Assembly (NCBI GenBank): GCA_916048095.2
Contig: OU696588.1
Location: forward strand, 7,529,501 to 7,593,500
Reading direction: 5' to 3'
Source: Sacculina carcini
Lineage: Eukaryota > Arthropoda > Thecostraca > Sacculinidae
DNA: 64,000 nucleotides
The notes under the pieces were generated by a model that was given only the letters and a program-made list of their open reading frames with translations, was not told the DNA's origin and made no database searches. The translations under genes were made by a program, and so were the position numbers. Shown piece after piece: positions 6,510 to 60,747 of the stretch (positions are counted from its first letter, which is position 1; every line of letters starts with the position of its first letter).

Positions 6510-6768
6510 ATTAGAGGCAAATCCAGTAGCATGGTAAGAGTGCAAGCACTATTACCACCCTAAGGTGGCCCCATGTACCGGAAGCGCCCAAAAGATTCAG
6601 AGAGAAAGAGAGTTCGAAATGAAACAATTCTAGAAAGAGAGTCGGAAAAGAAACTAATAAATAAATAAAAATAAATAATAAACCATCATCCGATAACACT
6701 CCATAATGTCACTCCGCCCAAGTTCCTAAATAAATAACAACAATCAATAATAAATAAGAATAAATAAG
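6510..6768 (+). repeat. Dispersed repeat R1, copy 1 (conserved core)
   Basis: About 230 bp here recur at 24780-25000 (inverted) and 27878-28115 (direct). The core begins 'GGCAAATCCAGTAGCATGG' and contains 'CACCCTAAGGTGGCCCCATG' and 'CCATCATCCGATAACA'. It ends near 'CCGCCCAAGTTCCT'. After the core each copy passes into AT-rich tandem tails based on 'aataaatatgattcaataa'. No pol III box and no open frame are evident, so I cannot say whether it is a SINE, a MITE or a fragment of a larger element. The tail of this copy resumes at 11211, on the far side of a LINE insertion. Confidence 0.8.
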
Positions 6769-6869
6769 AGTCTTGTGCCAGTGGTCGACGTGAGTGGACG
6801 TGCTTTTGTGTTTCTTCCCTGGTGTTGGTCCTTGTTTCCCATTTCTGGCTTACGTTCAGTGTTTGTGTC

Positions 6870-8012: not shown

Positions 8013-8051
8013 CTAACTGACCGTCCTCCGCCATTTATCCCTCCCACTGTA

Positions 8052-10937
8052 TTGTCTACCACTCTCTCTTCTCCTCCGCTTGCCTCCACTTCTCTTTCCA
8101 CCGTTCCTTCAATTTCTATTGGCCTACAAAACATTCGCTCAGCCCGCAACAAATCCTCACTAATTTCTGATCTCTTGTCTCGCCACAACCTTTCTATTCT
8201 GTTTCTCACTGAGACATGGCTACTTCAATGCGATGTGCCAGTGTTTTTGGCCCAACTCCCATCATCCTACAACCTAATGCATGTCTGTCGCTCCTCCTCA
8301 AATTCTTCTAAAACTTCGGGTGGCGGTGTCGGCGTTATTTTTAATTCTTCTCTAGGTATTTCCTTACTTTCTGATCTTTCATTCACATCAATGTCATTTG
8401 AGTACATCGCTACTTCTCTGTTTCTGCCTGCGTCGCCTAAGCTGGGCCTACTGCTTGCCTACCGCCATAATAACCCAGGCTCATCTTCTCAATTTATCTC
8501 TGACTTTGACACCCTTATTTCGTATTTTTTCCAACATTTTCACGATAATTTTATTATTCTTGGGGACTTTAATTTCTGGGTGGACTGTCCCCTATCACAG
8601 CCCTATGCTTCTGATTTTCTTTCTTTACTTGAATCTTGGGGTCTTTCTGTTATAAATTCGGGTATTACTCATACTTCAGGCCACACTCTCGATCTTCTCA
8701 TTTGTACAGCTTCATCCGCAAATTTAATTCTTCCCGGTCTGCTTACTTTCCCACCTGATGCCACCACATCCGATCATAGCTTCATCTCATTTGCTTTAAA
8801 ACATCACAAACTGGCTTCTACACACTCACCAAAAACCTACTATGCACGTGATTACAGTAACTTCGACTCTTCCTATTTCTCTCTCCTCGTTTCTTCTTCT
8901 CTCTCTCCCACTATTTACAATTTTATTCCCCCTTCATCCATCTCACACTTCATAAATGAATCTTTGTGTGATATTAATGAGGTTCTGTTCCCACTGCGCC
9001 GCCGCGTGATAAAGTCCTCTGTCTCGCCACTTCCGTGGTTAAATTCGGACTTACGCCACTTACGTGCAGAGACCCGTGCCCATGAACGACGTTGGCGCCG
9101 ATTTCGCACTGAGTCCAACTGGCTATCTTTTTGCGACTCTCGCAATAGTTTTCTTTCCTCTCTCGATCTTGCAAAATCTGTATATTATAAAGATAAGCTT
9201 TCATCCCGCTCAAATTCCTCTGACTCCAGGTGGCACACCCTGAAATCTATCACCGGTTTTTCCAAATCGGCTCCTTGCTCTATTTCTGCGTCATGTTTTT
9301 CATCTTTTTTCTGCGATAAACTTATCTTCGCCAGATCAAAGCTTCCTTCATCCTCCCTTCCTCTAACTTTTTCGTCCTCAAATACTTCCCTCGATGCCTT
9401 CTCACCTATCACACCTGCGATGACAATCAAGCTTCTAACTAAGCTACAAAAATCCAGGTGCCCCTCTGATCCAATCAACTTTCGTGTTCTCTCTGACTCC
9501 ATCTTTCTGCTTGCTCCTGTGCTTACCCATCTTGTAAATACTTCTTTTCTTCATGGAAATTTCCTAGCATCTAAACACGCCATTGTCTCACCTATTCTAA
9601 AAAAACCTTCCCTTGACTCCTCCATCCCCAGCAATTTCAGACCTATTTCTTTGCTTCCTCTTCCCTCCAAGCTTCTTGAGGCTGCCATTCTTCCTCAGCT
9701 CCGTCCTTGCATATATTCGGCCCTAGATCCATGTCAATCTGGTTTCGTTTCCGGGCACTCAACTGAAACTCTGCTCCTCTCTCTGCTTAATGATATACTT
9801 GCTTCTTTTTCCGTGGGTAATTCTGTGCTTTTCATTTCGCTTGACTTTTCTTCCGCTTTTGACCTTGTGAACCACTCCATCCTCCGCCAGGATCTACGGC
9901 ATGCCGGTCTTTCTTCCTCCGCGCTGTCTCTATTGTCATCCTATCTTGCTGATCGGTCATTTTCGGTACGCTGTAACTCCGAATATTCATCTTCTTCTCC
10001 TATTATTTCGGGTGTTCCCCAAGACTCTCTTCTCGGTCCTCTTTTGTTTAATCTTTATGTTTCTTCTCTTTGTCCGATCCTCCGCACCTATCCTATATCT
10101 TTCCACATTTATGCGGATGATATCCAAATTTATTTCCCTTTTTCGTCCTCTAACAGTTATCTCATCGACCAACTTCTATCCAACATTGCTGCCTGGGCGA
10201 CCTCCAGAGATCTCCTCTTGAATCCCGATAAGACAGAGTATATTTTATTTCACCCTCCTAGGATATCTCCGAACTGTCTTCATTTGTCCCTCTCCTCTCA
10301 TATTCGTAGTTTGGGCATTGTCTTTGATCCTTCACTTGATTTCTCCAAACATCTTTCAAACCTTACTCGATCCTGTCGATTCATCCTGCGCCAACTCTAC
10401 CCTATACGCCGACACATCGACGAATCCTCTGCACTGCTTCTTGTTAATTCCTATATCTTCTCCCGTCTCGACTATTGCAATTCTCTATTTTTTCACCTAC
10501 CTCAAAAATCTCTTCGATCCCTTCAGTCAATCATTAACCTTTCCTGTCGATTCGTTTTGCGTCTTCCACCTAGGACACCAACCTCTGTACATATTCGGCA
10601 ACTAGGCTGGCTGGCAGTCCCTTCGAGGATCCATCATAAGCTCTGCTGTCTTGTATATAAACTTCTTCACTCGCCTTCTCCCCCTTCCTACTTACTTACC
10701 CTCCTACAGTGTAACGAGCGACCTTCCAGTCGTCGTCCTGTACCTCTTGTTTCTCCTCCTGCTCTTCATGAGTCAAACTGGTCAGCCAAGTCTTTCTACT
10801 TTTCTGCTCCCCGTCTTTACAATCAACTTCCTCCTCATGTCCTGGAGCAAAAATCATACTCCTCATTCTCTTCTGCTCTGCAAAAATTTTTGCTATCTTT
10901 GCCCACACCTCTAACTCCTCCATTCCGAAAGCACTAA
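8052..10937 (+). CDS. LINE ORF2: AP-like endonuclease plus reverse transcriptase
   Basis: An uninterrupted frame of 961 codons. The apurinic-type endonuclease occupies roughly residues 20-260, with 'LTETWL', 'LGDFNFWVD' and 'TSDHSFISF' as its catalytic E, D-x-N and S-D-H motifs. The reverse transcriptase occupies roughly residues 470-730, with 'FRPISLLP', 'SLDFSSAFD', 'GVPQDSLLGPLLFNLY' and the catalytic 'YADD' near 10110. A CR1-type C-terminal region follows ('LDYCNSLF'). The protein would nick DNA and copy the LINE RNA at the nick. There is no early ATG: the frame opens with TTG at 8052, the first ATG is about 75 codons in (near 8277), inside the endonuclease domain, and the next is near 8391. 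ORF2 may therefore be made by reinitiation or another non-standard route. Confidence 0.88.
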   Translation: MSTTLSSPPLASTSLSTVPSISIGLQNIRSARNKSSLISDLLSRHNLSILFLTETWLLQCDVPVFLAQLPSSYNLMHVCRSSSNSSKTSGGGVGVIFNSSLGISLLSDLSFTSMSFEYIATSLFLPASPKLGLLLAYRHNNPGSSSQFISDFDTLISYFFQHFHDNFIILGDFNFWVDCPLSQPYASDFLSLLESWGLSVINSGITHTSGHTLDLLICTASSANLILPGLLTFPPDATTSDHSFISFALKHHKLASTHSPKTYYARDYSNFDSSYFSLLVSSSLSPTIYNFIPPSSISHFINESLCDINEVLFPLRRRVIKSSVSPLPWLNSDLRHLRAETRAHERRWRRFRTESNWLSFCDSRNSFLSSLDLAKSVYYKDKLSSRSNSSDSRWHTLKSITGFSKSAPCSISASCFSSFFCDKLIFARSKLPSSSLPLTFSSSNTSLDAFSPITPAMTIKLLTKLQKSRCPSDPINFRVLSDSIFLLAPVLTHLVNTSFLHGNFLASKHAIVSPILKKPSLDSSIPSNFRPISLLPLPSKLLEAAILPQLRPCIYSALDPCQSGFVSGHSTETLLLSLLNDILASFSVGNSVLFISLDFSSAFDLVNHSILRQDLRHAGLSSSALSLLSSYLADRSFSVRCNSEYSSSSPIISGVPQDSLLGPLLFNLYVSSLCPILRTYPISFHIYADDIQIYFPFSSSNSYLIDQLLSNIAAWATSRDLLLNPDKTEYILFHPPRISPNCLHLSLSSHIRSLGIVFDPSLDFSKHLSNLTRSCRFILRQLYPIRRHIDESSALLLVNSYIFSRLDYCNSLFFHLPQKSLRSLQSIINLSCRFVLRLPPRTPTSVHIRQLGWLAVPSRIHHKLCCLVYKLLHSPSPPSYLLTLLQCNERPSSRRPVPLVSPPALHESNWSAKSFYFSAPRLYNQLPPHVLEQKSYSSFSSALQKFLLSLPTPLTPPFRKH

Positions 10938-29351: not shown

Positions 29352-30278
29352 TACTAGAGTCTTTCCAAAAGTAATGCTTCCTCGTATTTTTCAACTCTGC
29401 GCCAAATAATAGGAGGAAGTTGAAATTCACACCATATTATGATTTACCTGTAACCAGCATATGCTAAAATTTTCATTTCTTTATTGCAAATATTAACGAC
29501 GTGACGTTTTGACAAAAATAGTTTCTCATGGTGACTCGTTAGAAGCAGATATGTGTCATTTAATTTCTTCACTATGAAGCGAATGCACCCATTGAAATAC
29601 ACTGATGCCTGAAAAAACTCTATGAAGCAGACACGGTGGATAAGAGCACAATGAGGAGATGGGTCCGTCGTTTTCATAGCTGTGAAAATGATGCCAAGAA
29701 AGACGGTCCCAACGACAATGTACATCACTTTTCCCGCTGATGTTGGTGACTTGAATTTCCTCTATGCTGGAGAGTTCGCGACCGTATCATCACCAGTGAC
29801 GACGCGTGGTGTCACCACTACGAGCCAGAGCCCAAAAAGCAGTCGATGGAATGCCAGCACTCGAACTCTCCAGCAGGAAATTCAGGACACCAACATCAGC
29901 GGTAAAAGTGATGTGCACTGTCTTTGGGACCGCCTTACTTGGTATCACTTTCACCGCTATGAGAACGACTGACCCATTTCCTCACTGTGCTCTTATCCAC
30001 CGTGTCTGCTTCATAGAGTTTTTTCAGGCATCGGTGGATGTCAATGGGTGCATTCGCTTCAGAGGGAAGAAATCCAATGACATAACTCTGTTTCTGACGA
30101 GTCACCATGAAAAACTATTTTCAAGACGTCACGTCGTGAATATTTGCAATAGAGAAATGGAAATGTTAGCATATGCTGGTAACAGGTGAATCATAATACG
30201 GTATAAATTTCAGCTTCCTCCAAATATTTCGGGCGGACTTTAAAAATAGGAGGCATTACTTTTGGAACGACCCTAGTA
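29352..30278. mobile_element. Fold-back mariner-like element
   Basis: The element spans 29354-30276 and is flanked by TA. Both ends carry the same mariner terminus ('CTAGRGTCKTTCCAAAAGTA' consensus) in opposite orientation, and the similarity continues inwards for about 400 bp on each arm. Each arm, read from its outer end, encodes the transposase N-terminus ('LKKLYEADTVDKSTVR'). The central 29765-29875 segment encodes 'IITSDDAWCHHYEPEPKKQS', the first catalytic block of mariner transposases. Two 5' halves joined head to head cannot encode a full transposase. The whole would fold into a long hairpin. Confidence 0.85.
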
Positions 30279-30718: not shown

Positions 30719-31550
30719 ATGGAAGGTGTCACACCTCCTCCGTTTTTTCTGGATCGACACGGGAAGCCGTCGATACCGTGGTCGAATTGGGTTTTTGCGT
30801 TCGAGACGTACTTGTCAGCAATGGGGGGGGGGGATGAATTCCCTGACAAGAGGCGGTGTAATTTGATTTTACATTGCATTGGGTCCGAGGCGCAGGCAGT
30901 CTACCTGTCCTTGCCGCCTTCGCCGAAGAGGGAAGGGGAATGGGACTACGATCGCGCAAAACGGCTCCTGACACTATTACTCACCAAAAGTCAATGTCAC
31001 ATCAGAGCGGTACGTTTTCCGACAGAGACGACAGCGTCAAGGCAAGTCAACTGCGGACTACGTGTCGGTTCTTCGAGGACTGGCTAGAACGTGCAGGTTC
31101 GGAGAACTCACTGACGAATTGATCTGCGACCAGGTGATCGAGCACACGCTCCACCCACGACTCAGGGAGAGAATATTGACCATTGACCGCATGACACTGG
31201 ATATTCTTCTTTCCACAGCGGAATCGTACGAGCTGTCACTGGAACAGTCGGCGCTGATGACGGGGCCCAGTCAAGCACAACCGTTGGACGAGGCTCTGAA
31301 AGATTCGTCATCTCGGAAAAAACCGGACAAGAGAACCGGCCAACCAGAGCCAAGACCTCGATGTAGCTATTGTGGCACGCAGCACAAGGAGTCCAGGTCG
31401 CAATTTTGCACTGCTCGCGATTCATCATGCCATTTCTTCTCCCGCAAAGGTCATTGGGCATCTGTGTGTCGCTCCAAGAAAGCCGAGCAGCAACCCTCAA
31501 CGTCAAAAAACGTCCGAAACATCACCATCATGTCATGTGGAGATACTTCA
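30719..31550 (+). pseudogene. Gypsy II gag
   Basis: The ATG at 30719 opens 'MEGVTPPPFFLDRHGKPSIP', then 'WSNWVFAFETYLSAMG', the usual start of gag in this Gypsy group. A frameshift near 31015 moves the frame. It then reads 'STADYVSVLRGLARTCRFGE' and 'LRERILTIDRMTLDILLSTA', the retrotransposon-gag core. A Cys/His-rich segment follows ('CSYCGTQHKESRSQFC' and 'CHFFSRKGHWASVC'). It stands where the zinc knuckle belongs, although one expected Cys is Phe. The protein would form the capsid and bind genomic RNA. Confidence 0.8.
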
Positions 31551-31559
31551 CATGAACGC

Positions 31560-31960
31560 CTTACTTGTGCAGCAACTGTGTCAGTGGCGTCAGGTCGGTC
31601 AGCGGAGTGCGACATTCAAGTGGACACCGGAGCTACAGTTTCTGTTCTCAGCCTTTCACTAGCTCGTAAGCACTTTAAGGGCGCTCAGGTAATCGGCACC
31701 AAATCAGACCACAAATTGTTTGGCGTTGAACGTCAACCGCTCAAGGTAGTGGGCACACTGTCTACGTCTGTCGTTGTCAAACACCATCAGGCTGATGTAG
31801 ACTTTTTTGTCATAGACACTCCAGTGATGGAAGGTCTTCTGGGACTTGACGCTCTCAATCGGTCTCACAATTCATCCAGATATCGGCATTGTGTCGACTG
31901 TGTCGATGGATGCATGCGACGATTCAGCTGTGCTACCTGCGATTGTCGGTTATCAGCACA
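31560..31960 (+). pseudogene. Gypsy II aspartic protease
   Basis: Contains 'DIQVDTGATVSVLSLSLARK', the D-T-G-A active site of the retroviral-type protease, and 'VMEGLLGLDAL', the G-L-L-G-x-D flap-distal motif. It is in the same frame as the downstream half of gag. The frame changes before RT begins near 31930. Confidence 0.8.
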
Positions 31961-33240
31961 GAATTAATCTGAAGGCGGGCGCGAAGCCGGTGAATTTTCC
32001 GCTCTGTCGGTTGCCTCTGTCAGTACGAGACGAGTTTTCGGCCGAGATTCGTAAATTACAGCAAGAGGGCACCATTGAGTCAATCGATTCTTCCGAGTGG
32101 GTGAGCCCAATAGTTGTGGCGCGCAAGAAGACCGGAGCCATTTGACTCTGCGTTGACCTCCGCGGCGTAAATCAACAGATCGTGGTGGATGCGCATCCTC
32201 TTCCCACCATCCAAGGCTACAGACACAACTCGATGGAGAGGTTTTTTCGCAGCTGGATCATCGATCAGCCTACCATCAGCTGGAACTGGAGCCTTCGAGT
32301 CGTCAATACACCGCATTTCTTACGCAAGACGGCTTATTTCAATTCAAGAGGCTACCATATGGATTAGAATCCGCGGGTGCCGCAATTCAAAGGCTACTCG
32401 ACAATGTCCTGCGAGGAGTCCACGGGTGCATCAAGTACATGGACGACATCGTCATTTGCGGACCAGACAAACGTGTGCACGACGAGCGGCTCTCTAAGGT
32501 GATGAGTCTACTTCGCCGCGCCAACATCACACTCAACCGTGATAAATGTGTCTTTTCCAGACCGGAAGTCCGTTTTTGTGGCTTCATCGTGTCCAGCGGC
32601 GTCATTCGCCCCGCTGAGGATCATTTGAGAGCAGTACGCGACACGCCCATCCCGACAAACGCCAAGGAGCTGAAGAGTTTCTTGGGCTAATGTTCGTGGC
32701 TTTCGCAATTCGTGGCCGGCTAGGCTAACGTTGCTGCCCCACTCTACGAACTGCTGAAAAAGGGGGTGACTTTCACGTGGGAGACGCAGCACACTGAGGC
32801 GTGCCGCACGCTGAAGCAGCTCATCATAAGCGCTCAGCCACTGCAGCGTTTCGACTCTCGACGAACGACGCTGCTGACGTCTGATGCCAGTGAGAAGGGC
32901 GCGGGAGCAGTTCTCTCACAGCTCGATGCGTCGGGCAAGGAACATATAATTGCGTTCTGGAGTCGCCGTTTCTCAGCGAGCGAAGTAAAATATTCCGGGA
33001 CCGAGCGGGAGGCACTCGCTGCCGTTCTCGCTATCGAAAGATGAAAAATGTTTCTATGGGGTTGTCCGTTCAAACTGAGAACAGATCATTCAGCACTTCA
33101 GTCCATCCTCTCGGCGAACTTCAGTGACAGAAATGGAGCAAGAATCGCCCGTTGGCAAGCGCAACTGCTGCCATATTCTTACACGATTGAGTATGTGCCT
33201 AGAGACCGCATTCCTGGTGTAGACGCGCTCTCACGACTCC
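31940..33240 (+). pseudogene. Gypsy II reverse transcriptase and RNase H
   Basis: RT begins with 'LRKLQQEGTIESID'-like sequence and 'SSEWVSPIVVARKKTGAI', is cut by TGA at 32143, and resumes 'LCVDLRGVNQQIV'. The region 32180-32440 is frame-scrambled. The catalytic 'YMDDIVICGP' follows at about 32439, then 'FCGFIVSSGVIRP'. RNase H includes 'LTSDASEKGAGAVLSQ' and 'AFWSRRFSASEVKYSGTERE'. In-frame stops fall at about 32688, 32730 and 33042. From 32439 onwards the frame is otherwise single. Confidence 0.88.
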
Positions 33241-33249
33241 CGTCAGGAG

Positions 33250-34760
33250 AGTCAGGTGACGATGAGGCGAATATCAGCGAGGCTGATATTGTCGAGCAGC
33301 TGTGTATCGACAGAGGTGTCATCACACGCACCGAGCTAGACAGTGCATCTAGAGACTATGAACAACTGACATCGCTTCGCAAGGCTCTGCGGGAGGGATT
33401 TCCACAGTCCGTCAAACATTGCGAGCCCGCCATTCGTCCCTTTTTTCACGTGAGTCGAGAGTTGTGCATCATCGACAACATCGTGGTTCGAGAAGATGAC
33501 CAGGTAGTTGTGCCTGCACCGTTACGTCAAGCATATTTGTCACGCGCTCACGCTGCACATGACGGCGTAGTGCGCACAAAGCAGCACATACGCACACTGG
33601 CGTGGTGGCAAGAAGTCGATAATGATGTCGAGAAGATGGTGGCTGACTGCTTAAGCTGCCAAACGAGCGACAAAGTCAACTGCAGCAGGTCTCGTCCGGT
33701 GCCGTTGAAGCCCGTAGATCACCCGCCTCAGCCGTAGTCTAAACTGGGACTAGACATTGTCGGCCCGATCGTTTGTCTACCACCAGAGTGCAGGTTTGCA
33801 TTCACACTTATCGACTATCAGTCCAAGTGGGCGGAGAACGGATTCTCGCCAACGATCGAATCCAAAAACGTCATTGACTTTTTCAGCGCCATTTGGTCGA
33901 GAGGGGGATTCCCTGAAGAGATTGTCACAGACAATGGCCGTCAATTTATAAGCAAGAAGTTCGAGACATATCTCGAGGACCGTGGCATCCAGCACCGTCG
34001 ATGTTCGGCATACTGGCCTCGAGGTAATGGAACAATCGAGCGATTTAACAGAGCAGTCAAGGCGTGGTTAAAACAATATCACCAAGATCGCTCCGCAAAT
34101 TCAATCATTCATCATTTCCACAGTATGCTGGCCATGTACCGGTCAACACCCCACACCACCACTGGTGAGGCGCCGTCACAGCTGCTTCACGGACGTCGAA
34201 TGCTGTTGTCGCTGCCATTGGCGAGCATACACACCTGTAGGGGATATGTCGCTGCCCGTGTTCGTCGACACCATTCGCGCAACAAACGTCACTACGATCG
34301 TCGCATGGGAGTACGTGAGCCATTGATTGACGTCGGAGACATGGTGATGGTTCGAGTGACGAGGTGCACGGGTAAGAGTGGTGGAAGATTCACAGGTCCA
34401 GTTCGTGTCGTTCGACGCCGCGTCCATGCCTCTCAGCTAGAAGACGGTTCGTTGAGGAACGCTGCCCACCTCTCCGTTGTTCCGCTAGGAGGGATGTCGG
34501 CCACTTCACGTGGAGAAGACGAATATCACCATATACCGATATCTTGTCCTCATGACAAGACTGTAGATGACACTCACGCCAGTTCGGAGGGTTTGTCGCT
34601 AGATCAAGAGGAGTTGCGAGGTTCAACCGAACTTACGTCGGGCGAGGTGCGGCGTCCGGCAGAATCGGACCCTGCTGAAGAAACGAGCCGTTCATCGCTT
34701 CGCGAGCTGACGCCGTCGTCTCGAGGAAGGCGTCGCTGGTTGCCGGCTCGTCTGTACTAG
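33250..34760 (+). pseudogene. Gypsy II integrase and C-terminal tail
   Basis: The HHCC zinc domain has 'RAHAAHDGVVRTKQHIR' and 'CLSCQ'. After a TAG at 33735 the DDE core shows 'LDIVGPI', 'EIVTDNGRQF' and 'RGNGTIERFNRAVK', with both Asp residues and the Glu present. 'MYRSTPHTTTGEAPSQLLHG' follows. The tail has 'VDVGDMVMVRV'-like and 'GRFTGPVRVVRRRV' sequence, a GPY/F-type module, and a Ser/Thr/Glu-rich end. Apart from the TAG the frame is continuous to 34758. Confidence 0.88.
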
Positions 34761-39407: not shown

Positions 39408-39890
39408 TTTATTTTCATTTATTGAAACATTTATATGGCGCAATCTCTACACAATGTCTCAGATGCGCAGACAGTACAATATTTAAAATGCAGCATTGTA
39501 CAAACGGACACATACATGTACCACACGCACATATATATAGGTATAAGCAGACAGGCAGGTCGAAAAACAAGGCTGGCAGTCACTAATCCTTCTTCATTTC
39601 AAAACAGGTGATACTTTCACCATGTGCGACCAAAATATCACACCAGCACAACCATACACACACAAGCATAAAACCAACCCTCTCACACACACACAGTCAC
39701 ACACACACACACACAAATTTTTAAACTTGCCCGTGATGTTTTGTCAGTGTCCGGTCACGTGTTTAAACGTTCGCCCGCGACACTTGTCATAATCGATCAT
39801 CGCGGCGGCGGTTGAGTTGTCTGTGTCTTTATATAGACGTGTGTGTGTGTATTTATCCCATTGCGACCGTGTATAGTGTGCGCGTGTATA

Positions 39891-40062
39891 TCTTTGCGTA
39901 TATGTGCATATATATGCTTATATGTGCATATATATGCGTATATGTGCATATATATGCGTATATGTGCATATATATGCGTATATGTGCATATATATGCGTA
40001 TATGTGCATATATATGCGTATATGTGCATATATATGCGTATATGTGCATATATATGCGTATA
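39891..40062 (+). repeat. Tandem 18-bp repeat (atatatgcgtatatgtgc)
   Basis: About nine perfect or near-perfect head-to-tail units alternating 'atatatgcgt' and 'atatgtgc'. It ends about 130 bp before the Cys-rich start of the LINE protein at 40164 and is in frame with it, but the translated repeat is unlikely to be meaningful. Confidence 0.92.
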
Positions 40063-40163
40063 TAGCAGTTTGTGGCGTCGTCCAGTTAGCGCTAGTGTGG
40101 CATCGGCCACAGGTTCAAGCGCTTGAGATGAGACGTCGTGAAGAAGAGTGCACGCGGGACACC

Positions 40164-40675
40164 GTAGTGATGCCAACAGGTGAAAGTGTGTGCCAGGTTT
40201 GTGGCGACACGCGCGGTACCAGACACCGTCACGGCGCCGATTCTTGCCGGGCCTGCTGCGTCATTTTCCTTTGGCATCTTCACGATGACCGCAGCACCAC
40301 CACGTGCAGGCGCGGAAAGGTTGCACCTTGACAGCTTGTGTCCGTTCCTGCGCACCATGCCGTCTGCAACGATGTTTTGCCGTCGGTGTGCAGGCTGATT
40401 TTCGTGTGGACCAAACACCATCTGATGAAGATGTATCTCAGCCAGCCATGCAAGTTCACCGATGCGAAAATTCGCTAACCTGTAATATCTGCGACATCTC
40501 TAACGGCGTAGGAAGCGGATCATAATGTGTGACCGGTGCCAGTTGTATTCCCAACTAACCTGCGTGGGACTGACACGCGCCCAGGCTTATGAGCTGTCTC
40601 TGTGGCACTGTGACCGCTGTCTTCAGGACGACGCAACACGCAGTGGAGGGAGAGAAGACAACTGCCGATACTGAG
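40164..40675 (+). pseudogene. LINE N-terminal region: nuclear-receptor-like Cys cluster plus PHD finger
   Basis: The frame at 40164 reads 'GESVCQVCGDTRGTRHRHGA' then 'DSCRACC', with Cys codons at 40191, 40200, 40245 and 40254. After the Cys at 40305 a frameshift leads to 'KGCTLTACVRSCAPCRLQRC' then 'FAVGV' (Cys at 40322, 40349, 40358). This follows the layout of the two C4 fingers of a nuclear-receptor DNA-binding domain (CxVCGD...SCRAC... then C-x5-C-x8-C-x2-C-RLxxC). Spacing deviates by one residue in each finger. A PHD-type finger follows at about 40465-40640 ('MCDRCQLYSQLTCVGLTRAQ' and 'LWHCDRC'), after another frameshift. DNA or target binding is inferred. Confidence 0.6.
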
Positions 40676-40719
40676 ACACCAGCGGACGCGTTCGACAGCA
40701 CGTTCCGCGCAAGCTTCGA

Positions 40720-42260
40720 CACCGTATGACTATTGATATAGCATCCGCTATTAACACGGTTCTGCAGAAGTGCTCATTGATTTCATGGTGGCGTACCTTG
40801 TCCTACGCATACACCAGCCCACTGGCCACAGCCATGGCTACAATTGACGAGACAACCGGAACCGGGATCTTTACAGACCGACCGGACCTCAAAGACGCAC
40901 TGGCTCGTCGGGTGAGAAGCAAGTGTGCAGATGGCGACATTCAAGGCGCACTTCGTCTCCTCACCACCACTGACAGCGTCGCATCCCCAAGTTCAGAAGT
41001 GGCTCAATCTCTTCGATCCAAGCACCCGCCAGCCCCCGAGGACGAAAACCTTGCTTTCACATAGGATGTTCATCGTTGCCTAACCGAGAGCGAAGACGAC
41101 GTCATGCAGGCCATCTATGGCTTCCCTAACGCTTCTTCTGCTGGTCTTGATGGTATCCGACCACTCCACCTAAGCCAGATGTTATCTATGAGGACAGCGG
41201 AGGCGGGTCGGTAGCTGCTCACGGTGCTGACCAGGCAATGCAGTTGCGCCATAGCCGGTAACATCCCCAACTTCGCAAGGTCTGCTTTTTACGGCGCGAG
41301 GCTGATTGTCCTACGAAAGAAGACCGACGGCCTGAGACCAATCGCCGTAGGTAGCACTTACCGCCGGCTGGCGAGCAAACTGGTCGTGAGACTACTGTCA
41401 AATGAAGATGGCGCGCAGTTTCGTCCAGTGCAGCTGGGCGTTGGCACCCCACTCGGTTGTGAGGCGGCCGTCCACGCCACGCGATAATTTGTCGAAGCAC
41501 ACTCTATGCGTGAGGACCACGTCATCGTGAACGTGGACACCAACGCATTTAACACGGTGACAAGGACGGCAGTGCTGGATGCGGTTTGCAGGTGTTTCCC
41601 GTAGCTGCGCCGCTCGCCGTCCAGGCATACTCCCAACGGACGCTAATATATCCTTGCTCCACCAAGATCTGGTCCTCTCGTAGAGTACAGCAAGGCAATC
41701 TTCTAGGCCCCCTCTTGTTTGCTCTCGCTATAGACCATGTGATAATGCTGGTGAGCGCACCACTCAACCTGTGGTACCTGGATGACGCAACACTCGGGAA
41801 CCTGCAAATGTCATCGCTGCGGACGTAGCGCGTCTCATACTGGCTCTCCGTGTCATCGTATTAGAGCTTAATCAGACAAAGTGCGAACGCATCTGCCTGG
41901 CACCAACTACCACCAACCAGCACCACGTTGAAGGTGAGGAGTTTCATCATTGCAACGAAAACGGCAGTGTAGACTCTGACACTGCAAGTACCGCATATAC
42001 TGAGACGATAAATCTGACCAGTGCCGTCAAGTCAATCCCGTTGCCACTTATGACGCTGCTCGGTGCGCCCATTCAGGATGGCGGCATCAGCAAAGCCCTT
42101 GCAGCCATCAAGACAACGGCACAGCTATTGATTGACAGAACAGCTGATATTGACAGTCATGCGGCACTGTTCTTTCTGGCTGGAAACGTGTCTGTACCAC
42201 GGGCCACTTACTTGTTGAGAGCTGCACCCGTCTACTCGGCAGAAGATTAACTAACAGAAA
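40720..42260 (+). pseudogene. LINE reverse transcriptase (restriction-like-endonuclease type)
   Basis: In-frame pieces read 'FPNASSAGLDGIRPLHLSQM', 'LRKKTDGLRPIAVGSTYRRL', 'GVGTPLGCEAAVHATR', 'NVDTNAFNTV', 'QQGNLLGPLLFALAIDHVIM' and 'LWYLDDATLG'. These are RT blocks 0 to 5, with the catalytic Y-L-D-D near 41772. The G-x-x-x-G-C-E-A-A-V-H-A-x-R block between fingers and palm is shared by a group of animal LINEs whose protein ends in a restriction-like endonuclease. Stops at about 41062, 41212, 41486 and 41602 and several frameshifts make the copy inactive. Confidence 0.8.
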
Positions 42261-43260
42261 TTGATAAGTTGTTACGTGCCGCAATGTCCCGCGGTTGCAA
42301 CGTGCAGCTAAGTGAAGCGAGTTGGATGCAGGCGTCACTACCCGTGCGCCTGGGGACCATCGGTGCGTGGCGTCTTGTGGATGTATTTTTTCCTGCACAA
42401 ATTTCCTCCCTGGAGGCTACCAGGAGGCTGGTAAGTCTTATAAACAGCTGTGACAGCAGCGACAGACCAGCTTTCCTGGTGTCCGCCGTCAGGTAATTTC
42501 TTAAGAGAACACCGGTGTCCCGAATTCAGCAACGATGTGCCACTCAACCAGCGTCGCCTAGACGAGCTAGCATCCACCTGTCGATATCAGAGCTTGCTGT
42601 CCCAGTCAAACCAGGTGGACCATGCCAGACTTCTTGCTTCCGCCGCTCCGCAGAGCGGTGCCTGGTTGTCCGCGTTACCGGTGGCTAGCCTGGGTTTGTC
42701 GCTGCCTGACGATGCCGCTAGGATCGGTGTGGCGTTCCGACTGGGAGCGCCCGTACAGCAGCCGCACAGGCGCGCCTGTGCGGTGTCATGACCGACAAAT
42801 TTGGACACCTGTCTTGTCACCGTGATCCTGGTCGTTTGCCACACCACCGCGCCTTGAATGACGTGGTTTTTCGGAGTTTAGCATCGGCGGGACTTGTCGC
42901 CGTCCTGGAACCCCGAGGACTGGACCGAAGCGATGGGAGACGTCCATACGGCATTACCTGCTTCTCTTTCAGGAGAGGTCGGATCATGTGCTGGGATGCG
43001 ACGTGCAGCAACATATTCGGCAGGTCACATCTGGTTGAGTGTGCTTTGAGTCCGGAAGCTGCCGCTCAAGCGGCCTAGGAGCACATTCACAGAAAATACG
43101 CCGCTCTCAGCCGTCAGTACGAATTCGTCCCTCTCGCTGTAGACGCAACAGGAGTTCTTGGGGCCGCATTCAGCGAGTTGCTGACTGCGGTCGGTCGTCG
43201 GTTGAAGGAACGATAGGGTGAGGCACGGGAGACCGCCTGGCTCCGACAGCGTGTGAGCCT
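42260..43260 (+). pseudogene. LINE C-terminal zinc/restriction-like endonuclease region
   Basis: After 'SAAPQSGAWLSALPVASLGL' and 'GVAFRLGAPVQQPH' the frame at 42788 shows 'LNDVVFRSLASAGLVAVLEP', 'RGLDRSDGRRPYGIT' and 'GRIMCWDATCSN'. The pattern ...E-P-x-G-L-x-R-x-D-G-x-R-P-D-G...W-D-x-T is the catalytic PD-(D/E)xK-like core of these LINEs. Here the Asp of R-P-D-G is Tyr, so the nuclease would be impaired. A stop at 43076 is followed by weakly conserved tail sequence to about 43260. Such an endonuclease normally gives some target preference. Confidence 0.7.
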
Positions 43261-44395
43261 GACGGTAGTACGTAGCAATGCTGCTGCTGTTTGCTTGTAA
43301 TGTTTGTTCATATTCATATTTATGTATGTTTGTTTGGTATATAATAGAGTATGTGTGTGTAAATAAACAAAACACACACGCACACACACACGTCCAATCA
43401 TTTAATTGCGTTTCATACGCTTTGAAACATTGATATCCATGTTTGTTGTTGTTCAAGTTTTCCGCTTGAACAGCACCGAAAACATCAACAGAAACAATCA
43501 TTTTGGGTTCAACCGTTGGTCTTTTATGGGGTGTATGTCGTGCTGTGTTCGAACACCTGCGTATGTGCCGGACATTTTTCCATGATGTGTGATTTTGGGT
43601 GGGAAAGCGTCGCATTCCAGACAGACGTTATTCATGGAGTTTTAGAGCCCTTCAGGTAGCTGAGAAGAGCTGCATGATGGTGATACCTCCGTCTATAGTC
43701 AGATATATTTTGTTCTCGCGTTTGTGCATTACTTCAACGCTATATTTCTGGTGTTTGTTCTTGCAAAATTGTGTTCCGTAGTAATTATTCTTTACTAAAT
43801 TCAATATATTATATGTCCGGTATATGTGCTGGATATATTTGAAGATATCTCAAATAAACACTAGACGATTATCAGGAATTATATAGGAATTGAGGCTATA
43901 ATCCAAGAGTTCGTGCATTACCTTGGGGTATAGACGTGGACACTTGCAACTGCTTGCGATGTCTAGCTTGTTGAAGCAAGGTGACAGTGGCACTTTGCGT
44001 TTGCGGCAAGGAAATCACCCTGCTAGCTGCAGCTTTCACAGCCCAGTCCTGTGAGGAGTGTTCTCTCCCGATCGGACGAGTTACAAGCGATGTCGGTGCA
44101 GCAGTCCATGTAGCGGTACCCTGACCGTCTTCCTTGCACGACCGCTGCCAACATGATACACTGAGTTATGTGTGTGTGTCAACATGATACGCTGAGTTAT
44201 GTGTGCGTGCGTGCGTGCGTGCTTGCGTGCGTGCGTGCGTGCGTGTGTTGGTCAATTGTCAGTATTGCTGGTCCTGTGATACCCAATAGTTCCTTGTTTT
44301 TGCCTTTGTGCCTTTTAACTTGCTCAATTTAAACCTTGTTAACTCTGTGTCACTTCGCTTTATGCAGGGCACATGTGATGCGCGGGTGATGAATT
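43260..44395. other. LINE 3' flank and repeats
   Basis: Probable LINE 3' UTR to about 43395, where a CA-rich tract occurs. Further on lie a 37-bp imperfect tandem duplication ('CATGATACRCTGAGTTATGT' at about 44152 and 44183) and a (GTGC)n tract at about 44203-44246. No gene is supported. Confidence 0.55.
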
Positions 44396-45480: not shown

Positions 45481-45753
45481 TTCGCTTTAAACCGTCGAGT
45501 CTGGCTAGTGTCACTTAGCGGTGCACTCCCAGCTCGGACGTCTCTTAGCAAGACGGAAGGTTTTTATACCGAGCGTCGCGCTGTCGGGTAGTCGATTTCG
45601 GGTCGACAGACAGGGCACACCCTGTCGTTCCAGTGCGCTGCAGTTGGCGTTAGTGAGTGACTGGGTCTCACACCCTCCGTCACTCGTACACTACGCCACT
45701 GGTTCACGGCACACCTGCTGCCACAGCCACTGGGACTAATCGCTAGCGGCATC

Positions 45754-46704
45754 ATGCCCATCAGCGACACTGGTGACCCCGTGCAGAGCACGGGAGCGCA
45801 TGGCGCTCAGCCTCATGGCTCCGAGCAAGCGGTACCCAGACCCAGCACCACATTCCGACTGCCAGTGTTCCTACCGGAGGATCCTGAAGTCTGGTTGGTA
45901 CAAGTGGAGTGTGCATTTGATGTGGCCTGCATAGAGAGCGACGAGACGCGCTTCAAACTTGTTGTGGCAAACTTACCGCCACACATCGCCACGCAATTGA
46001 AGGACGTGCTACGTGGACCCAAATCGTTCGCTGCCTTGAGCACCGCCCTGCAGGAACGGCTTGCGCAGTCAAACGCCAGTCGACTGGATGCGTTACTGTC
46101 CAGCCAACAACTGGGCGACCAGAAGCCCACCGCCCTGCTGAGCTCAATGCGGCATGAGCTACGTTCAGCTGGTGATGTACCTGCAGACACAGGCCTTCTC
46201 CGCACACTGTTTCTTCAGCGCTTACCACAGGAAGCACGTGCTGCTCTGGCATTACTGCCAGCTTCTAGCACACTGGACGAGCTCGCCGGCGCCGCCGATC
46301 GATACCTGGAGGCCAGCGGTCTTTCATCTCGACCCACAGCAGCTCAGCACGTCACGGCCATCCAGCAGCAACACCCACCTGCTTTGGAGCAAGTGCTTTC
46401 TTCACTCGTGGAAGCAGTGCAACGACTGGAGACGTCCAACAAGGAGCTACGCACAGCGCTGCATGACCGCCCGACGTCACGTGATCGGCAGCAGTACGTC
46501 GCGTACAACAATCGCCGGCGATCACCGTCACCACGACCTACACGGCATCGTCAATCCTTCAGTAGAGGTGAGACGCACCACAGTGCATCACGCTCACCAC
46601 AACAGCCAGCACATTCACAGCGGCGGCGGATCTGCCATTGCCACGCGCGCTTCGGTGCCGATGCTCGTAAATGCTCACCTCCGTGCTCATGGGCGTTAAA
46701 CTGA
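45754..46704 (+). CDS. CsRn1-like Gypsy gag
   Basis: An intact 316-codon frame from the ATG at 45754. It contains '[20 protein letters not shown]', '[13 protein letters not shown]' and '[20 protein letters not shown]', the conserved gag core of the CsRn1 group of Gypsy elements. The C-terminal '[20 protein letters not shown]' is the unusual CHCC-type knuckle of that group, in place of the usual CCHC. The product would form the particle. Pol starts in another frame and overlaps the last 34 bp. GC content is visibly higher than in the flanks. Confidence 0.85.
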
Positions 46705-48056
46705 AGAGCCCCCAGCACGTGGCGCAGTGTTTGGGAGGCAATGCAAGGTTAGTACCATTATTTTTCGTGAGTGATAGGGCAACACATGAAAACTATCTCA
46801 TAGACACCGGCGCACAAGTGAGTGTCTTGCCATACAAAAGCAACAAAAATTGTTTTTCACGCACCGCAAATCAGACACGACTACGAGCCGCCAACGGGTC
46901 TGCCATTGAGATGTACGGCACCAGACACCACACTGTTACCTTCGGCAACGGCGCAACGTGTCCGTGGACATTTCGGGTCGCTGACGTAAATATGCCTATT
47001 ATCGGCGCGGATTTTCTGCGAGCACACAGATTGGTCGTGGACATCAACCAGCAACCGCTACTACGAGATGGCGTCGTCCTGAATGCGGGCTCGATTCTAC
47101 AGCTGACAGCACCAGGCATTCAGGTGATTGCAATGCCGCGCACCGCCTACCAACACGTCCTGGACGAGGTTACGGACCTGACAGCTCCTCCCACTGCGCC
47201 GTCACAGGTGAAGCATTCAGTCACACACCACATCGTGACCACCGGTCAGCCAGTGTTCTTCAGACCCAGACGTCTGCCACAGGGTCGCGATGTCATTGCC
47301 AGACGCGAATTCGACAAGATGTTGAAACTCGGCATCATACGCCAATCGTCCAGCAGCTGGGCATCACCACTGCATCTCGTGCCGAAGAAAACACCAGGTG
47401 AGTGGCGCCCATGCGGCGATTACCGTGGGTTTAACGCACGCACAGTGCCTGACACGTACCCGCTGCCGTACCTCAGAGATTTTTCAACGCACCTGCACGG
47501 CTGCACGTTATTTTCTACGCTGGATTTGGTACGCGCTTACAATCAGATTCCTGTCGAACCGGCGGACATTCCAAAAACCGCAATAACAACGCCGTTTGGG
47601 CTTTACGAAATGGTGCGTATGCCATTTGGCCTTCGCAACGCGGGACAAACTTTTCAACGGTTCATCGACGAGGTGTTGCGCGGAGTTCCTCATTGTTTTG
47701 CATACCTGGATGATATTTTACTGGCCAGCCCGTCCGAAACACATCATGAGAACCTCCTGCGAGCCGTTTTCACTCGACTTCAACAGTACGGCATTGTCGT
47801 AAACAAGGACAAGTGCGTACTCGGTGCCGAACGCGTCAACTTCCTGGGACACATGGTAGACTCTGGCGGTGTCCACCCACTTCCTGAGAGAGTGGACGCC
47901 ATACGTCACTACCCATTGCCATCCAGCCAGTCCGGACTACGACGCTTCTTGGGTATGGTAGCGTACTACCACAGATTCATTCCGAACGCCGCCCATATGC
48001 TTCAGCCCCTCCATGCGCTCATCACACATCGTGCTCCGCAGCAACGTGGTGTGTAG
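46671..48056 (+). CDS. CsRn1-like Gypsy pol: protease and reverse transcriptase (truncated)
   Basis: A 461-codon frame overlapping gag. The protease has '[13 protein letters not shown]' (D-T-G-A) and 'IIGADFLR'. RT shows '[20 protein letters not shown]', '[20 protein letters not shown]', '[10 protein letters not shown]', '[20 protein letters not shown]', the catalytic '[10 protein letters not shown]' near 47700, and '[20 protein letters not shown]'. It stops at 48054 just after 'LQPLHALI', before RNase H. There is no RNase H, integrase or 3' LTR downstream, so the element is 3' truncated even though gag and this part of pol are open. Confidence 0.88.
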
Positions 48057-56823: not shown

Positions 56824-57150
56824 TGTGATGTAAAATTATTATGTGCGTTATTTGTTGTATGAATGTCATTTGTTGTATACTGGTTAGTTTGCGTGATTGT
56901 CTGATGTAGTGTAACAGGTGACCTTGAAGTTGGTGTTCAAGGTTATGCGTCATGGAGTGTTAACGCGATTTGATTGGCTGTATGACTTGTGACGTAATGA
57001 ATATTGATTTTTGTGTTTAATCGATGAAGTATGTTTGGGAGAAATATGGCAGTGTCGTGAGGAGAGTGACTGTGAATGGAAGTGTGCTGTTAGGATAATT
57101 TGTGTACTGAGTTTCATTGTTTTATGTTATTTTAATACAGTTTTATCACA
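56824..57150 (+). repeat. 5' LTR of element IV
   Basis: 327 bp, TGTGATGTAAAA...TTTTATCACA. The gag ATG follows 15 bp after its end, leaving almost no leader. The following 'AGCTATTTCGG' resembles sequence at 38011 after the TRIM-like element's first LTR ('CAAGCTATTTCGG'), which may mean a shared primer-binding site. Confidence 0.95.
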
Positions 57151-57165
57151 AGCTATTTCGGCAAA

Positions 57166-57873
57166 ATGGATACCATGAAAATAACGGATATTGTTGGAAG
57201 ATATGACGGCTCTGGAGATTTTCAGATATGGTTGGATAAATTCAAATTAGCCGCCAAACTGAAAGAAGTTGATGAATTGGCCACGTTGCTGCCACTCTTT
57301 TTGGAAGGACGAGCATTTAAAGTTTACCAGCAGATACCGGAAGAAGGTAGGAAAGAATTTCCGATAATTGTGGACTCGTTGCGGAAAACATTCGGAGTAA
57401 CGCCAGCTGCTGCATATTCTACATTCATCAACCGCAAACTTAGAGATGACGAAACGTTGGAGGATTTTCTGGCCGACCTAAAGTGTATGGCGACATGTGT
57501 AGCAACTGGACAGAATGATGCGTGGATTGCTTGCCAGTTTATGAATGGACTACCCCATGATATACAAGACACAGTGCGGGCAATGCATGGGGCGGAGTTG
57601 AGTTTAGAAAATATTCTCAATTGCGCTAAACAAGTCCAGGCTGGGCTTCAATCGAAACCGAATAGTTTGGGTTATGCCGCAAGTGTGAAATGTTATCGCT
57701 GTGGATCCTTTGGTCATATTTCTCGTCACTGCAGAAAACAACCAAACGTTCAATCAGATCGACTATGTTTTCTGTGTAATAAGCCTGGACATATCGCTCG
57801 TTTCTGCCAGGGAAACGCACAGCGGGGAGAGGTTACATCTGCAGCGCCGTCCGCCTCTCCCCGCGAGCAGTAA
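57166..57873 (+). CDS. LTR element IV gag
   Basis: An intact 235-codon frame: 'IVGRYDGSGDFQIWLDKFKL' and 'TLLPLFLEGRAFKVYQQIPE' (capsid-like region), 'TLEDFLADLKCMA', then two CCHC knuckles 'CYRCGSFGHISRHC' and 'CFLCNKPGHIARFC' at residues about 176-215. It forms the particle and binds RNA. Pol opens in another frame within a few bases of the gag stop. The Y-D-G-S-G-D start and knuckle pair resemble the decayed gag at 19862. Confidence 0.9.
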   Translation: MDTMKITDIVGRYDGSGDFQIWLDKFKLAAKLKEVDELATLLPLFLEGRAFKVYQQIPEEGRKEFPIIVDSLRKTFGVTPAAAYSTFINRKLRDDETLEDFLADLKCMATCVATGQNDAWIACQFMNGLPHDIQDTVRAMHGAELSLENILNCAKQVQAGLQSKPNSLGYAASVKCYRCGSFGHISRHCRKQPNVQSDRLCFLCNKPGHIARFCQGNAQRGEVTSAAPSASPREQ

Positions 57874-57878
57874 TCAAT

Positions 57879-58386
57879 GTGTGGATGGACGGCAGGCATG
57901 GACGCGCACTAATCGATACAGGTAGTAGTCATTCAATAGTGAACCGAGCAATGATACGAAGATGCAGAAAAAACGTGGAGAAAAATAATCTTCCACTACA
58001 AATAATGGATGGAGCTACCTATATGCTTGAAGAATGTGTTCATTGGGATTCAGTTTGTGTAGATGATGGTCGGTGTGTTGCTACTGCTTGTACTTGGGTG
58101 TGCAACAACAATCACTTGCCCAGTGGAGTTGATGTCATTCTCGGAATGGACACAATAGTCGCTCTTGGTGGCGTTATGATCATGCCAAATGGTGAAATAA
58201 AATTTCTGGGTATGTCACATGCTGGAAGTATGGTGAAAAATGTGGGTAGAATTTCAATTAAAGAAAATGATTTTGACGCTTCATTTGAAAATGGTCGTTG
58301 GACGGTGAGTTGGAAGTGGAAAGAGAAACTACCGCAAAATACTGGATTCAGGCAGAATTATCAGGTGAGGGAAAGTGACAAAGAAT
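57879..58386 (+). pseudogene. LTR element IV protease
   Basis: 'RALIDTGSSHSIVNRAMIRR' holds the D-T-G-S active site, and 'GVDVILGMDTIVALGG' the I-L-G-M-D motif of retroviral-type aspartic proteases. It ends at a TAA (58386) that separates it from RT in the same frame, so pol cannot be read through without suppression. Confidence 0.85.
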
Positions 58387-58388
58387 AA

Positions 58389-59748
58389 TTCGAAGACGAA
58401 GTCAAACGTTGGATTGCCGACGGTATATTGCAAGAATATGACAGACAGAAGCACGGTGAAATTAGAGGTAGGATCCCGCTGATGGCAGTACGCCAAGTGA
58501 AGAAAAATAAAGTGCGACCAGTTATGGACTATAGACCGCTGAATGACCACATACTGAGTTCTCCTGGATTAGACAGCGCCGTGTGCGATGAAAAAATGCG
58601 AAAATGGAGGCGTCTGGGAACGTCTATCAAGCTCCTGGACCTTCGCAACGCGTATTTGCAAATATACGTTGATCCATCGCTATGGTGCTATCAAGTGGTG
58701 AAATTCCAAAGAAAGCAGTATGTGATGACTCGACTCGGGTTTGGCTTAAGCATCAGGCCTAAGGTAATGACGAAAGTACTGGATTACGTGTTGAAAGGAT
58801 GTGATGCGAAAGAAGCTGTGGACCATTATATAGATGATATCGTTATTGATACAGATCGAATTGATGTGTCGAATGTTCAAAAACACCTCAAGTCTTTTGG
58901 ACTAGTAACCAAACAGCCTGAAGAACTGGATGGTGCTAGTGTTTTAGGTTTGCGTGTTACCGATGATCATGGTCAATATCGATGGGTCAGAGACGGCAGT
59001 CCCACCAATTCCTGAAAAACTTACGAAGCGTGAACTCTACTCGCTGTGTGGCCAGTGGCTGGGTCACTTCCCAGTTGCTGGGTGGTTGAGGGTTGTTTGT
59101 AACTGGCTGAGACGTGAATCATGCGACGAGAGTACGGTGATGGGGTGCGAAAATATTGTAAGGCCGGATATACGTCGAGTTGTGGAATTAATATCCAAGA
59201 GATTGCTCACGGATGACCCAGTGACAGGTGTGTGGACAGTTAATGGAAGTAGAGGGATCATTTGGACAGATGCGAGCAATACGGCGTTAGGTGTAGTGGT
59301 GACTATTGATGGAGTGGTGGTGGAAGATGGTTCGTGGTTGAGAAAGAATCAAGACTCTGCTCACGTTAACGTAGCAGAATTGGATGCGGCAATTAAAGGC
59401 ATCAACATGGCCTTAAAGTGGAAATTAGAAGAAGTTGAAATTGTGACAGACTCTTCTACGGTAAAAGGTTGGCTGAGTAATATTGTGAACAACACCCATC
59501 GGCCAAGAACGCATGGAATGTCGGAGATGATAGTTCGCCGACGTCTTGATGTCGTCAAAGAATTGATAGACACTTATCACTTGAGTGTGACTGTAAGATT
59601 GCTTCCATCCCAAGACAATCTGGCAGATAAAATGTCACGGATTCCAAAGGATCTAATTAAAGGATTCGACCGTGGAATGTGCTTTTCCGGTACATCGGAA
59701 ACGGTTGCTAGACTACATCATGAAACTGGTCATATGGGAGTGGATTGA
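58389..59748 (+). pseudogene. LTR element IV reverse transcriptase and RNase H
   Basis: RT: 'IPLMAVRQVKKNKVRPVMDY', 'MRKWRRLGTSIKLLDLRNAY', 'VMTRLGFGLSIRP' and the catalytic 'HYIDDIVID' near 58827. A frameshift lies in the overlap at 58954-59015. The next frame has 'LTKRELYSLCGQWLGHFPVA' and an RNase H of cellular type, 'GIIWTDASNTALGVVV', 'NVAELDAAIKGI', 'EIVTDSSTVKGWL' and 'DNLADKMSRI'. The R-K-W-R-R insertion and Y-I-D-D box mark a distinct Gypsy-related lineage. TGA at 59746 ends the frame. Confidence 0.88.
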
Positions 59749-60747
59749 ACGAGTGAAATGCTAGAAGCTAATGGAAAGTCAGTTCCGAAGTCGGTGATTA
59801 ATAAGGTGATAAAAAAATGTGAGCGATGCAGCAGAATTGACCCTGCACCACGAGAAAGGTGGTCAAAAGGGGAAGTATCGTGCGATCAAGTGTGGTTACG
59901 TCTTGCGACAGATATAACGTACGTGCATAGACAACCTTTTCTGACTGTCGTTGACTGTGCGTCACGCTTTAACATCTGGCGAAGATTGGCAGGAGAGACA
60001 GCAAATTCGGTATCTGTTGCATTGGAAAGCATCTTTTCGGAATTCGGACCCCCTCATGTGTTGTTGTTTGATAATAGTCCAACATTTTTGAGTGCCACAA
60101 TCAGTCAGCTTTTGTCTAGATGGGCGGTGAAACCTCTACAATGTTGTGCATACCGCCATCAAGGCAATGGCATTGTAGAGCGCGCACATAGAACAATAAA
60201 GCGCATGGTGGAACGATCGGAAAAATGTGTTGCTGAGATGGTTTTTTGGTATAACGCAACCACCAACAGTGTAACTGGTGAAGCTCCCTTCGTGAGTGTT
60301 TTTGGAGCTGTGCCGAAGATGCCTACCATAACAACCAGTAGACGAGTGAAGGCCTCCGGTATTCAACAAGAGTGGACTGGTGAAGAAGACGACACTAACC
60401 TGAACCCGCTACAAGTCGGAGATTCTGTGTTCTTGAAACCTAGACAACCATCATGTACATCTCACTGGACTGGACCCTTTCAGGTGTCTCGTGTTCCTAA
60501 CAACTGGTCTGTTGATATTGGTGATGGAGTAAACAGGCATGTCAGTCATGTGCGACGTGTGTGCGAGGATGACAGTGATCAGGACAACGGAGATGATTCA
60601 GATGACAATGATCGTGATAGCAGCACGCGTGTTGACGGTGGTGATAACGGAACAACCGATTCTGATCATGCTAATGATTCTGATCCATGGCAGAATAGAT
60701 TGCGTGATAGATCCAGATTACAAGTTCCAATGCGCTATAGAGACTAG
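59749..60747 (+). pseudogene. LTR element IV integrase
   Basis: After the TGA at 59746 the same frame continues 329 codons. The zinc domain is split by that stop ('HHETGHMG' before, 'CERCSRID' after). The DDE core has 'LATDITYVHRQPFLTVVDCA', 'LLFDNSPTFL' and 'QGNGIVERAHRTIKRM', so all three acidic residues are present. The C-terminal tail 'QVGDSVFLKPRQPS' and 'HWTGPFQVSRVPNNWSVDIG' matches the decayed tail at 22410-22540. It ends in an Asp/Ser-rich stretch and TAG at 60745. Confidence 0.88.

Follow-up and report, generated by a model that had tools for sequence, protein, structure and literature searches.

A predicted nuclear-receptor-type zinc-finger domain in a restriction-like-endonuclease LINE: a decayed copy in Sacculina carcini and two unbroken relatives

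The window analysed here, a stretch of 64,000 nucleotides from the forward strand of contig OU696588.1 of Sacculina carcini, holds a single LINE reading frame whose N-terminus resembles the DNA-binding domain of nuclear receptors (Table 1). The original prediction had proposed a cysteine cluster followed by a PHD-type finger, a reverse transcriptase and a restriction-like endonuclease on one strand. These parts are indeed found in that order on the + strand, in a read-through that extends to the stop at 43298. The copy is dead, as it carries eight internal in-frame stops and six frame changes and the RPDG of its relatives is read as RPYG. The read-through was composed from seven segments of our own placement, with 12 and 31 bases omitted at two joints, and in a protein search it proved colinear with a protein designated P0001 (50% identity, 98% of the query covered). 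When the LINE was compared with the whole window (blastn, E 1e-3), no second copy was detected; only the self match and one 22-base match inside the element were returned.

Other repeats are also found in the window. Another LINE occupies 6768-10937 and consists of two long adjoining frames, with a PHD finger and with an endonuclease/phosphatase plus reverse transcriptase. Frames that look like the gag and pol of LTR retrotransposons were recognized by eye from the translations at 45661-48056, 30972-34760 and 57136-60747, and the stretch 29352-30278 aligns with its own reverse complement (82.9% identity, 946 columns).

Table 1. Features of the LINE copy and its flanks (positions within the window).
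Feature	Position	Strand	Remarks
CA microsatellite, 5' side, candidate insertion-site sequence	39684..39715		element boundary unproven
Putative 5' untranslated region	39716..40127	+	extent inferred
20-bp repeat, 9 copies	39884-40063		immediately 5' of the LINE reading frame, within the putative 5' untranslated region
LINE reading frame, single	40128..43300	+	about 1047 residues; ATG at 40128, terminal stop at 43298
Nuclear-receptor-type zf-C4 domain (predicted), two C4 fingers	40188..40390	+	Pfam, solved-structure matches, shuffles
PHD-type finger	40481..40620	+	one frame change; as cut-out piece 17.6 bits, E=0.0041, below the cutoff of 24
Reverse transcriptase (RVT_1)	41314..41896	+	36.0 bits against a cutoff of 29.6, read-through
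Predicted zinc knuckle and restriction-like endonuclease region	42776..43297	+	alignment with relatives; no Pfam family matched
Putative 3' untranslated region	43301..43371	+	A+T-rich, 22.5% G+C; extent inferred
Interrupted CA microsatellite, 3' side	43372..43391		

The stretch that encodes the zf-C4 domain contains one frame change, located between 40319 and 40322. The first frame reads CQVCGD...DSCRACC...CRRGK, and the next frame continues with CTLTACVRSCAPCRLQRCFAVGV. When the two frames were scored singly against Pfam, the first piece matched no family and the second gave a zf-C4 score of 15.7 bits (E=0.021). Joined with an X, they reached 29.1 bits (E=1.4e-6, profile positions 2-69 of 70), a score that holds only for the joined frames and that lies above the curated cutoff for zf-C4 (PF00105), 21.1 bits. 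Inside the whole 1047-residue read-through the domain scored 25.2 bits (E=2.3e-5). Comparison of the window N-terminus with the sequences of solved structures yielded 113 distinct matches at E values up to 10, headed by RAR-gamma (1.8e-8). Among the best 60 of these 113 matches, 58 were chains of nuclear receptors or of constructs based on such receptors, and the other two were PHD-finger chains.

The spacing of cysteines in the window is C-x2-C-x14-C-x2-C-x16-C-x5-C-x8-C-x2-C-x4-C, with one additional Cys right behind the fourth and another inside the x8 interval. In AR, as counted on the sequence used in our alignment, the spacing is 2,13,2,15,5,9,2,4, and the earlier remark that each finger is off by one residue is thus correct for the window copy. 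All eight zinc-ligand cysteines are present in the three carriers of the domain detected in this work, namely the window copy, P0001 and another relative, P0009. Compared with the receptor spacing 2,13,2,15,5,9,2, the three carriers are off by one in the first finger, which is one residue longer than that of receptors, and also between the fingers. The second finger has the exact spacing in P0009 (2,14,2,14,5,9,2,4, canonical in the second finger and not in the first) and x8 in place of x9 in both P0001 and the window.

The PHD-type finger fell below the cutoff as a cut-out piece (Table 1), and Pfam listed no PHD in the whole read-through. Among relatives, P0001, P0002, P0003, P0006, P0007 and, barely, P0010 scored above the PHD cutoff, and P0004 and P0005 below it. 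No Pfam match to PHD was obtained in P0009, where the finger was read from the Cys pattern and from an alignment with P0010. A profile made of 51 relatives matched R2 proteins (8.3e-26) and, at about 1e-5, PHD chains that include those of PHF2, BPTF and TAF3. In PHD readers of trimethylated H3K4, a Trp forms part of the cage that holds the ligand. This Trp is absent in P0001 and P0009 and a Tyr is found in the window; hence, we do not claim that the finger reads trimethylated H3K4.

At the C-terminal end, a CxC...H...C motif is invariant among 51 aligned relatives and an RPDG...WDxT motif is invariant or nearly so. We take these motifs to be the zinc knuckle and the nuclease. This reading leans in part on a published account (PMC5678591). 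The protein therefore shows the marks of a restriction-like-endonuclease LINE: a LINE-type reverse transcriptase followed by a C-terminal predicted zinc knuckle and nuclease. An AlphaFold model of P0009 had a mean confidence of 85.5, and 727 of its 1045 residues reached at least 90; a fold search with this model returned R2 structures as its best seven matches (best, 7.5e-25; TM by query length, 0.48-0.52). A second AlphaFold run was worse overall (mean 51.6 vs 85.5). Over the whole chain, the similarity in fold between the first model of P0009 and R2 is moderate.

The protein search carried out with the read-through returned 199 proteins, and domain labels and Cys patterns were taken from the 120 that were listed. 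Among these 120 of 199, precomputed Pfam labels assign zf-C4 to at least two relatives (P0001 and P0009) and PHD (PF00628) to at least 16, and a scan for the two-finger Cys pattern detected P0001 and P0009 only. Each of these two proteins is encoded on one contig, in two differently sourced assemblies that are also different from that of the window. Pfam scans placed zf-C4 at residues 3-71 of P0001 (34.3 bits) and at residues 13-80 of P0009 (56.3 bits, 4.4e-15), and RVT_1 was found in the same protein in both cases. With the window score, all three values exceed the zf-C4 cutoff, and the similarity to PF00105 suspected at the outset is borne out. P0009 is 44% identical to the read-through over 98% of the query. 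No Pfam match to a ligand-binding domain was obtained in P0001, P0009 or the read-through. Searches with shorter queries were less productive: a short N-terminal query gave eight candidates, all with E values above 0.01, and residues 1-160 of P0009 gave 189 candidates from which P0009 alone was returned and P0001 was missed. At the DNA level, no relative was found in the viral contigs or the prokaryote genome contigs searched.

Additional modules were observed among the relatives. A ubiquitin carboxyl-terminal hydrolase (PF00443) follows the reverse transcriptase, towards the C-terminus, in proteins such as P0012, P0024 (residues 1175-1499) and P0025, and its label is carried by at least 18 relatives among the 120 of 199 listed. 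A SAP label is found, within the same 120, on at least two (P0096 and P0104), and was confirmed at N-terminal residues 8-42 of P0096. Variants of the 2A-like motif GDVExNPGP occur in 9 of 121 sequences (P0023, P0025, P0028, P0030, P0031, P0043, P0044, P0051 and P0055), and in P0023, P0028, P0043, P0044 and P0055 they lie within the first 110 residues.

In P0001 and P0009, one unbroken chain extends from zf-C4 through the nuclease region, with the PHD-type finger between zf-C4 and the reverse transcriptase. As judged from these two predicted proteins, the zf-C4 domain is linked to the reverse transcriptase and to the nuclease region. The original prediction had considered a neighbouring host exon as the source of the cysteine cluster; more generally, the LINE might have entered, or lie beside, a nuclear-receptor gene or pseudogene of the host. 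This would fit the window taken alone and the frame changes inside and behind the domain, but it is hardly credible. A host exon was rejected as the source because each of the two unbroken proteins combines zf-C4 with the reverse transcriptase and the nuclease region in a single chain, and because 98% of the window read-through is colinear with P0001.

Resemblance to nuclear receptors might also be fortuitous, a possibility that had been raised for the window cluster. The window domain aligned with that of P0001 at 54.3 bits and with that of P0009 at 28.7 bits, and none of 2000 full shuffles of the window domain reached the real score with either protein. When the cysteines were kept fixed, none of 2000 shuffles of the window domain did so against P0009, P0001, RAR-gamma, RXR-alpha or AR. 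The same test, applied to the window, P0001 and P0009 with each of the three receptors, gave 0/2000 in nine of nine comparisons. The narrowest margins involved P0001 (30.7 bits with AR, against a shuffle maximum of 27.5, and 22.5 with RAR-gamma, against 18.5). A profile made of the three domains had RXR-alpha as its best match (1.6e-15), the best 60 of its 116 matches all bore nuclear-receptor names, and matching residues other than Cys were found across both fingers. Among the receptors compared, which included few from invertebrates, the best single match was RAR-gamma for the window and P0009, and RXR-alpha for the joint profile.

If the Cys-rich N-terminus of a PHD-bearing LINE had come to resemble a nuclear-receptor domain by convergence, one could understand why the first finger of each of the three carriers exceeds the receptor length by one residue and why P0001 surpasses its Cys-fixed shuffles by small margins (those with AR and RAR-gamma). 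However, no shuffle reached the real score in any comparison, P0009 scores well above the zf-C4 cutoff, and both fingers match at non-Cys residues as well. Convergence is therefore very improbable, and coincidence of cysteines alone was rejected on the grounds that Cys-fixed shuffles never attain the real score and that P0001 and P0009 both match the HMM. On sequence evidence, the domain is homologous to the DNA-binding domains of nuclear receptors. Its fold contributes little to this conclusion: residues 11-80 of P0009 were modelled by AlphaFold with low confidence (block means of 26-43 in the first model and 29-59 in the second). The receptor domain folds as two helices packed into one unit. 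In the second run, which included 11 sequences, helices were placed at residues 33-43, 58-62 and 73-80 of P0009 with confidence under 60; at this low confidence, their order is the one expected for a receptor domain. The homology hence rests on sequence, not on fold. Together with the linkage in P0001 and P0009, the HMM match supports the original suggestion that the element captured a nuclear-receptor domain.

The age of the fusion was considered using a FastTree phylogeny built from 747 columns that span the reverse transcriptase to the nuclease (121 rows, none dropped; midpoint rooting; FastTree's own supports). The window falls in a clade of 13 members that also contains P0001-P0011 and P0029 (support 1.0). 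One subclade includes the window and P0001 (0.985; their pairing, 0.838; one node within, 0.157), and the other is formed by P0009, P0010, P0011 and P0029 (1.0). P0029, from the crab Chionoecetes opilio, aligns with P0009 at 74% identity. A whole zf-C4 is found in three of the 13 members, the window, P0001 and P0009. Nine others are uninformative as to its presence, as their predicted proteins start inside or downstream of the domain: P0002 opens within the second finger, where its RRC and GM residues can be aligned; P0004, P0006, P0007 and P0010 begin at the same Met, the one that ends the second finger; P0005 begins inside the PHD; and P0008, P0011 and P0029 begin after it. The remaining member, P0003, has an upstream stretch, but no zf-C4 in it. 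An out-of-frame remnant of the domain upstream in P0003 was sought and is not supported (49 of 300 shuffles were as good). The concern that other copies of the element might lack the Cys cluster is thus justified for P0003 and dispelled for P0001 and P0009, and the nine predicted proteins that start inside or behind the domain do not bear on it.

Judging by these sequences, both of the lineages that the deepest split of the clade separates contain the domain. Because the three carriers are so distributed, a single old gain that predates the split explains them most simply and is likely. An alternative is that the fusion is recent in separate elements, or an assembly artefact, and not ancestral. 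P0001 and P0009 rest on one contig each, P0003 shows no domain, and the Met shared by P0004, P0006, P0007 and P0010 could be the start of a genuinely shorter protein. Still, the order and position of the domain are the same in the window and in two assemblies of different source, its carriers lie on either side of the split, and the start of P0002 falls within the second finger, its RRC and GM being in register. A recent or artefactual origin is, on balance, improbable.

The flanks of the window copy offer a hint about insertion. A CA microsatellite is found on each side of the element, the one at the 3' side being interrupted and located 71 bases from the end of the reading frame. The window contains 13 pure CA or TG tracts of at least 12 bp, a count that leaves out the interrupted 3' tract. 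The frequency of random point pairs with tracts on both sides was 5e-6, a figure that overstates the case as the ends of the element were chosen after seeing the tracts. Some restriction-like-endonuclease LINEs are reported to insert into microsatellites, Togen in (TG)n being an example (PMC4640811). As they come from one copy whose ends are unproven, the flanking CA repeats are no more than a lead to a candidate target.

Altogether, these observations suggest that a lineage of restriction-like-endonuclease LINEs in animals acquired a complete nuclear-receptor-type domain at the extreme N-terminus of its single protein, probably once and before the clade split, and that the domain works as a target reader in the manner of R2. 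We consider this interpretation somewhat better than an even bet. The protein would act by target-primed reverse transcription, as R2 does, with zf-C4 in place of the N-terminal target reader of R2-type elements. The helix of the first finger would recognize a short DNA word close to where the element inserts and would thereby position the nuclease, the PHD-type finger might contact a histone tail or other chromatin, and the CA repeats at the ends of the window copy would be a candidate target. The functional part of this proposal is an argument by analogy: zf-C4 and the PHD-type finger occupy the place that corresponds to the target reader of R2. In R2, mutation of the upstream region is reported to have abolished cleavage, and the motif by itself brought activity back to nearly that of the wild type (PMC10499050).

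A different role is rather unlikely, yet it is the alternative that fares best. A genuine zf-C4 of nuclear-receptor origin might bind the RNA or promoter of the element itself, assist nuclear entry or engage host transcription complexes, and the evidence for homology and linkage would apply equally well. Receptors read DNA with residues around the fourth Cys, and these residues differ among carriers (RACCV in the window, RSCQV in P0001 and ASCRE in P0009), which would be odd for one conserved target. The differences fit different targets or relaxed constraint equally. Also, relatives bear further modules, SAP and ubiquitin hydrolase among them. On the other side, R2 has its target reader at the place in the protein that zf-C4 occupies here (PMC10499050), and P0009 retains FFRR behind the fourth Cys.

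An extended version of the target-reader interpretation can be proposed, albeit tentatively and with more doubt than belief: the LINE may have swapped an older reader for that of a nuclear receptor and kept it as a site-choosing module through deep divergence, with the residues of the first finger altered in each branch. The DNA reader of a nuclear receptor would then operate with no receptor attached and guide insertion, perhaps into CA repeats or receptor response elements. No published fusion of a LINE with a nuclear-receptor domain was found in the open-licence literature searched with the terms used. To our knowledge, nuclear-receptor DNA-binding domains are an animal invention and are otherwise found in receptors. 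If a retrotransposon does carry one, the suggestion is that the target readers of endonuclease-type LINEs can be exchanged for a well-studied domain, and the choice of insertion site would be tied to one of the best-charted DNA-recognition codes of animals. The case is directly testable, zf-C4 being a small domain whose DNA preference is open to measurement.

Comparison with known systems places the element closest to R2, the best match of its catalytic body in both profile and fold. Like R2Bm and R2Tg, it would encode a single protein in which N-terminal zinc-binding domain(s) precede a reverse transcriptase, a zinc knuckle and a restriction-like endonuclease. In contrast, the N-terminus of R2 consists of C2H2 finger(s) and Myb (PMC10499050, PMC5678591), and here zf-C4 and a PHD-type finger are found; Pfam matched no Myb family in P0001, P0009 or the read-through, which therefore differ from the C2H2 and Myb arrangement of the R2 clade. 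A connection with the CRE/SLACS group comes from the name given to P0029 by its source, 'Retrotransposable element SLACS protein', a label of the source's own. PHD fingers are also present in the ORF1 of CR1 and L2 LINEs, for which domain shuffling has been suggested (PMC4120745). There, however, the PHD belongs to a separate ORF1 in elements of the Jockey superfamily, whereas here a PHD-type finger and zf-C4 share a single protein with the reverse transcriptase. With the DNA-binding domain of nuclear receptors (PF00105), the element has in common both C4 fingers, the profile match at 1.6e-15 and, in P0009, a canonical spacing of the second finger; unlike receptors, it shows no Pfam match to a ligand-binding domain, has one extra residue in the first finger and carries a reverse transcriptase fused to the domain.
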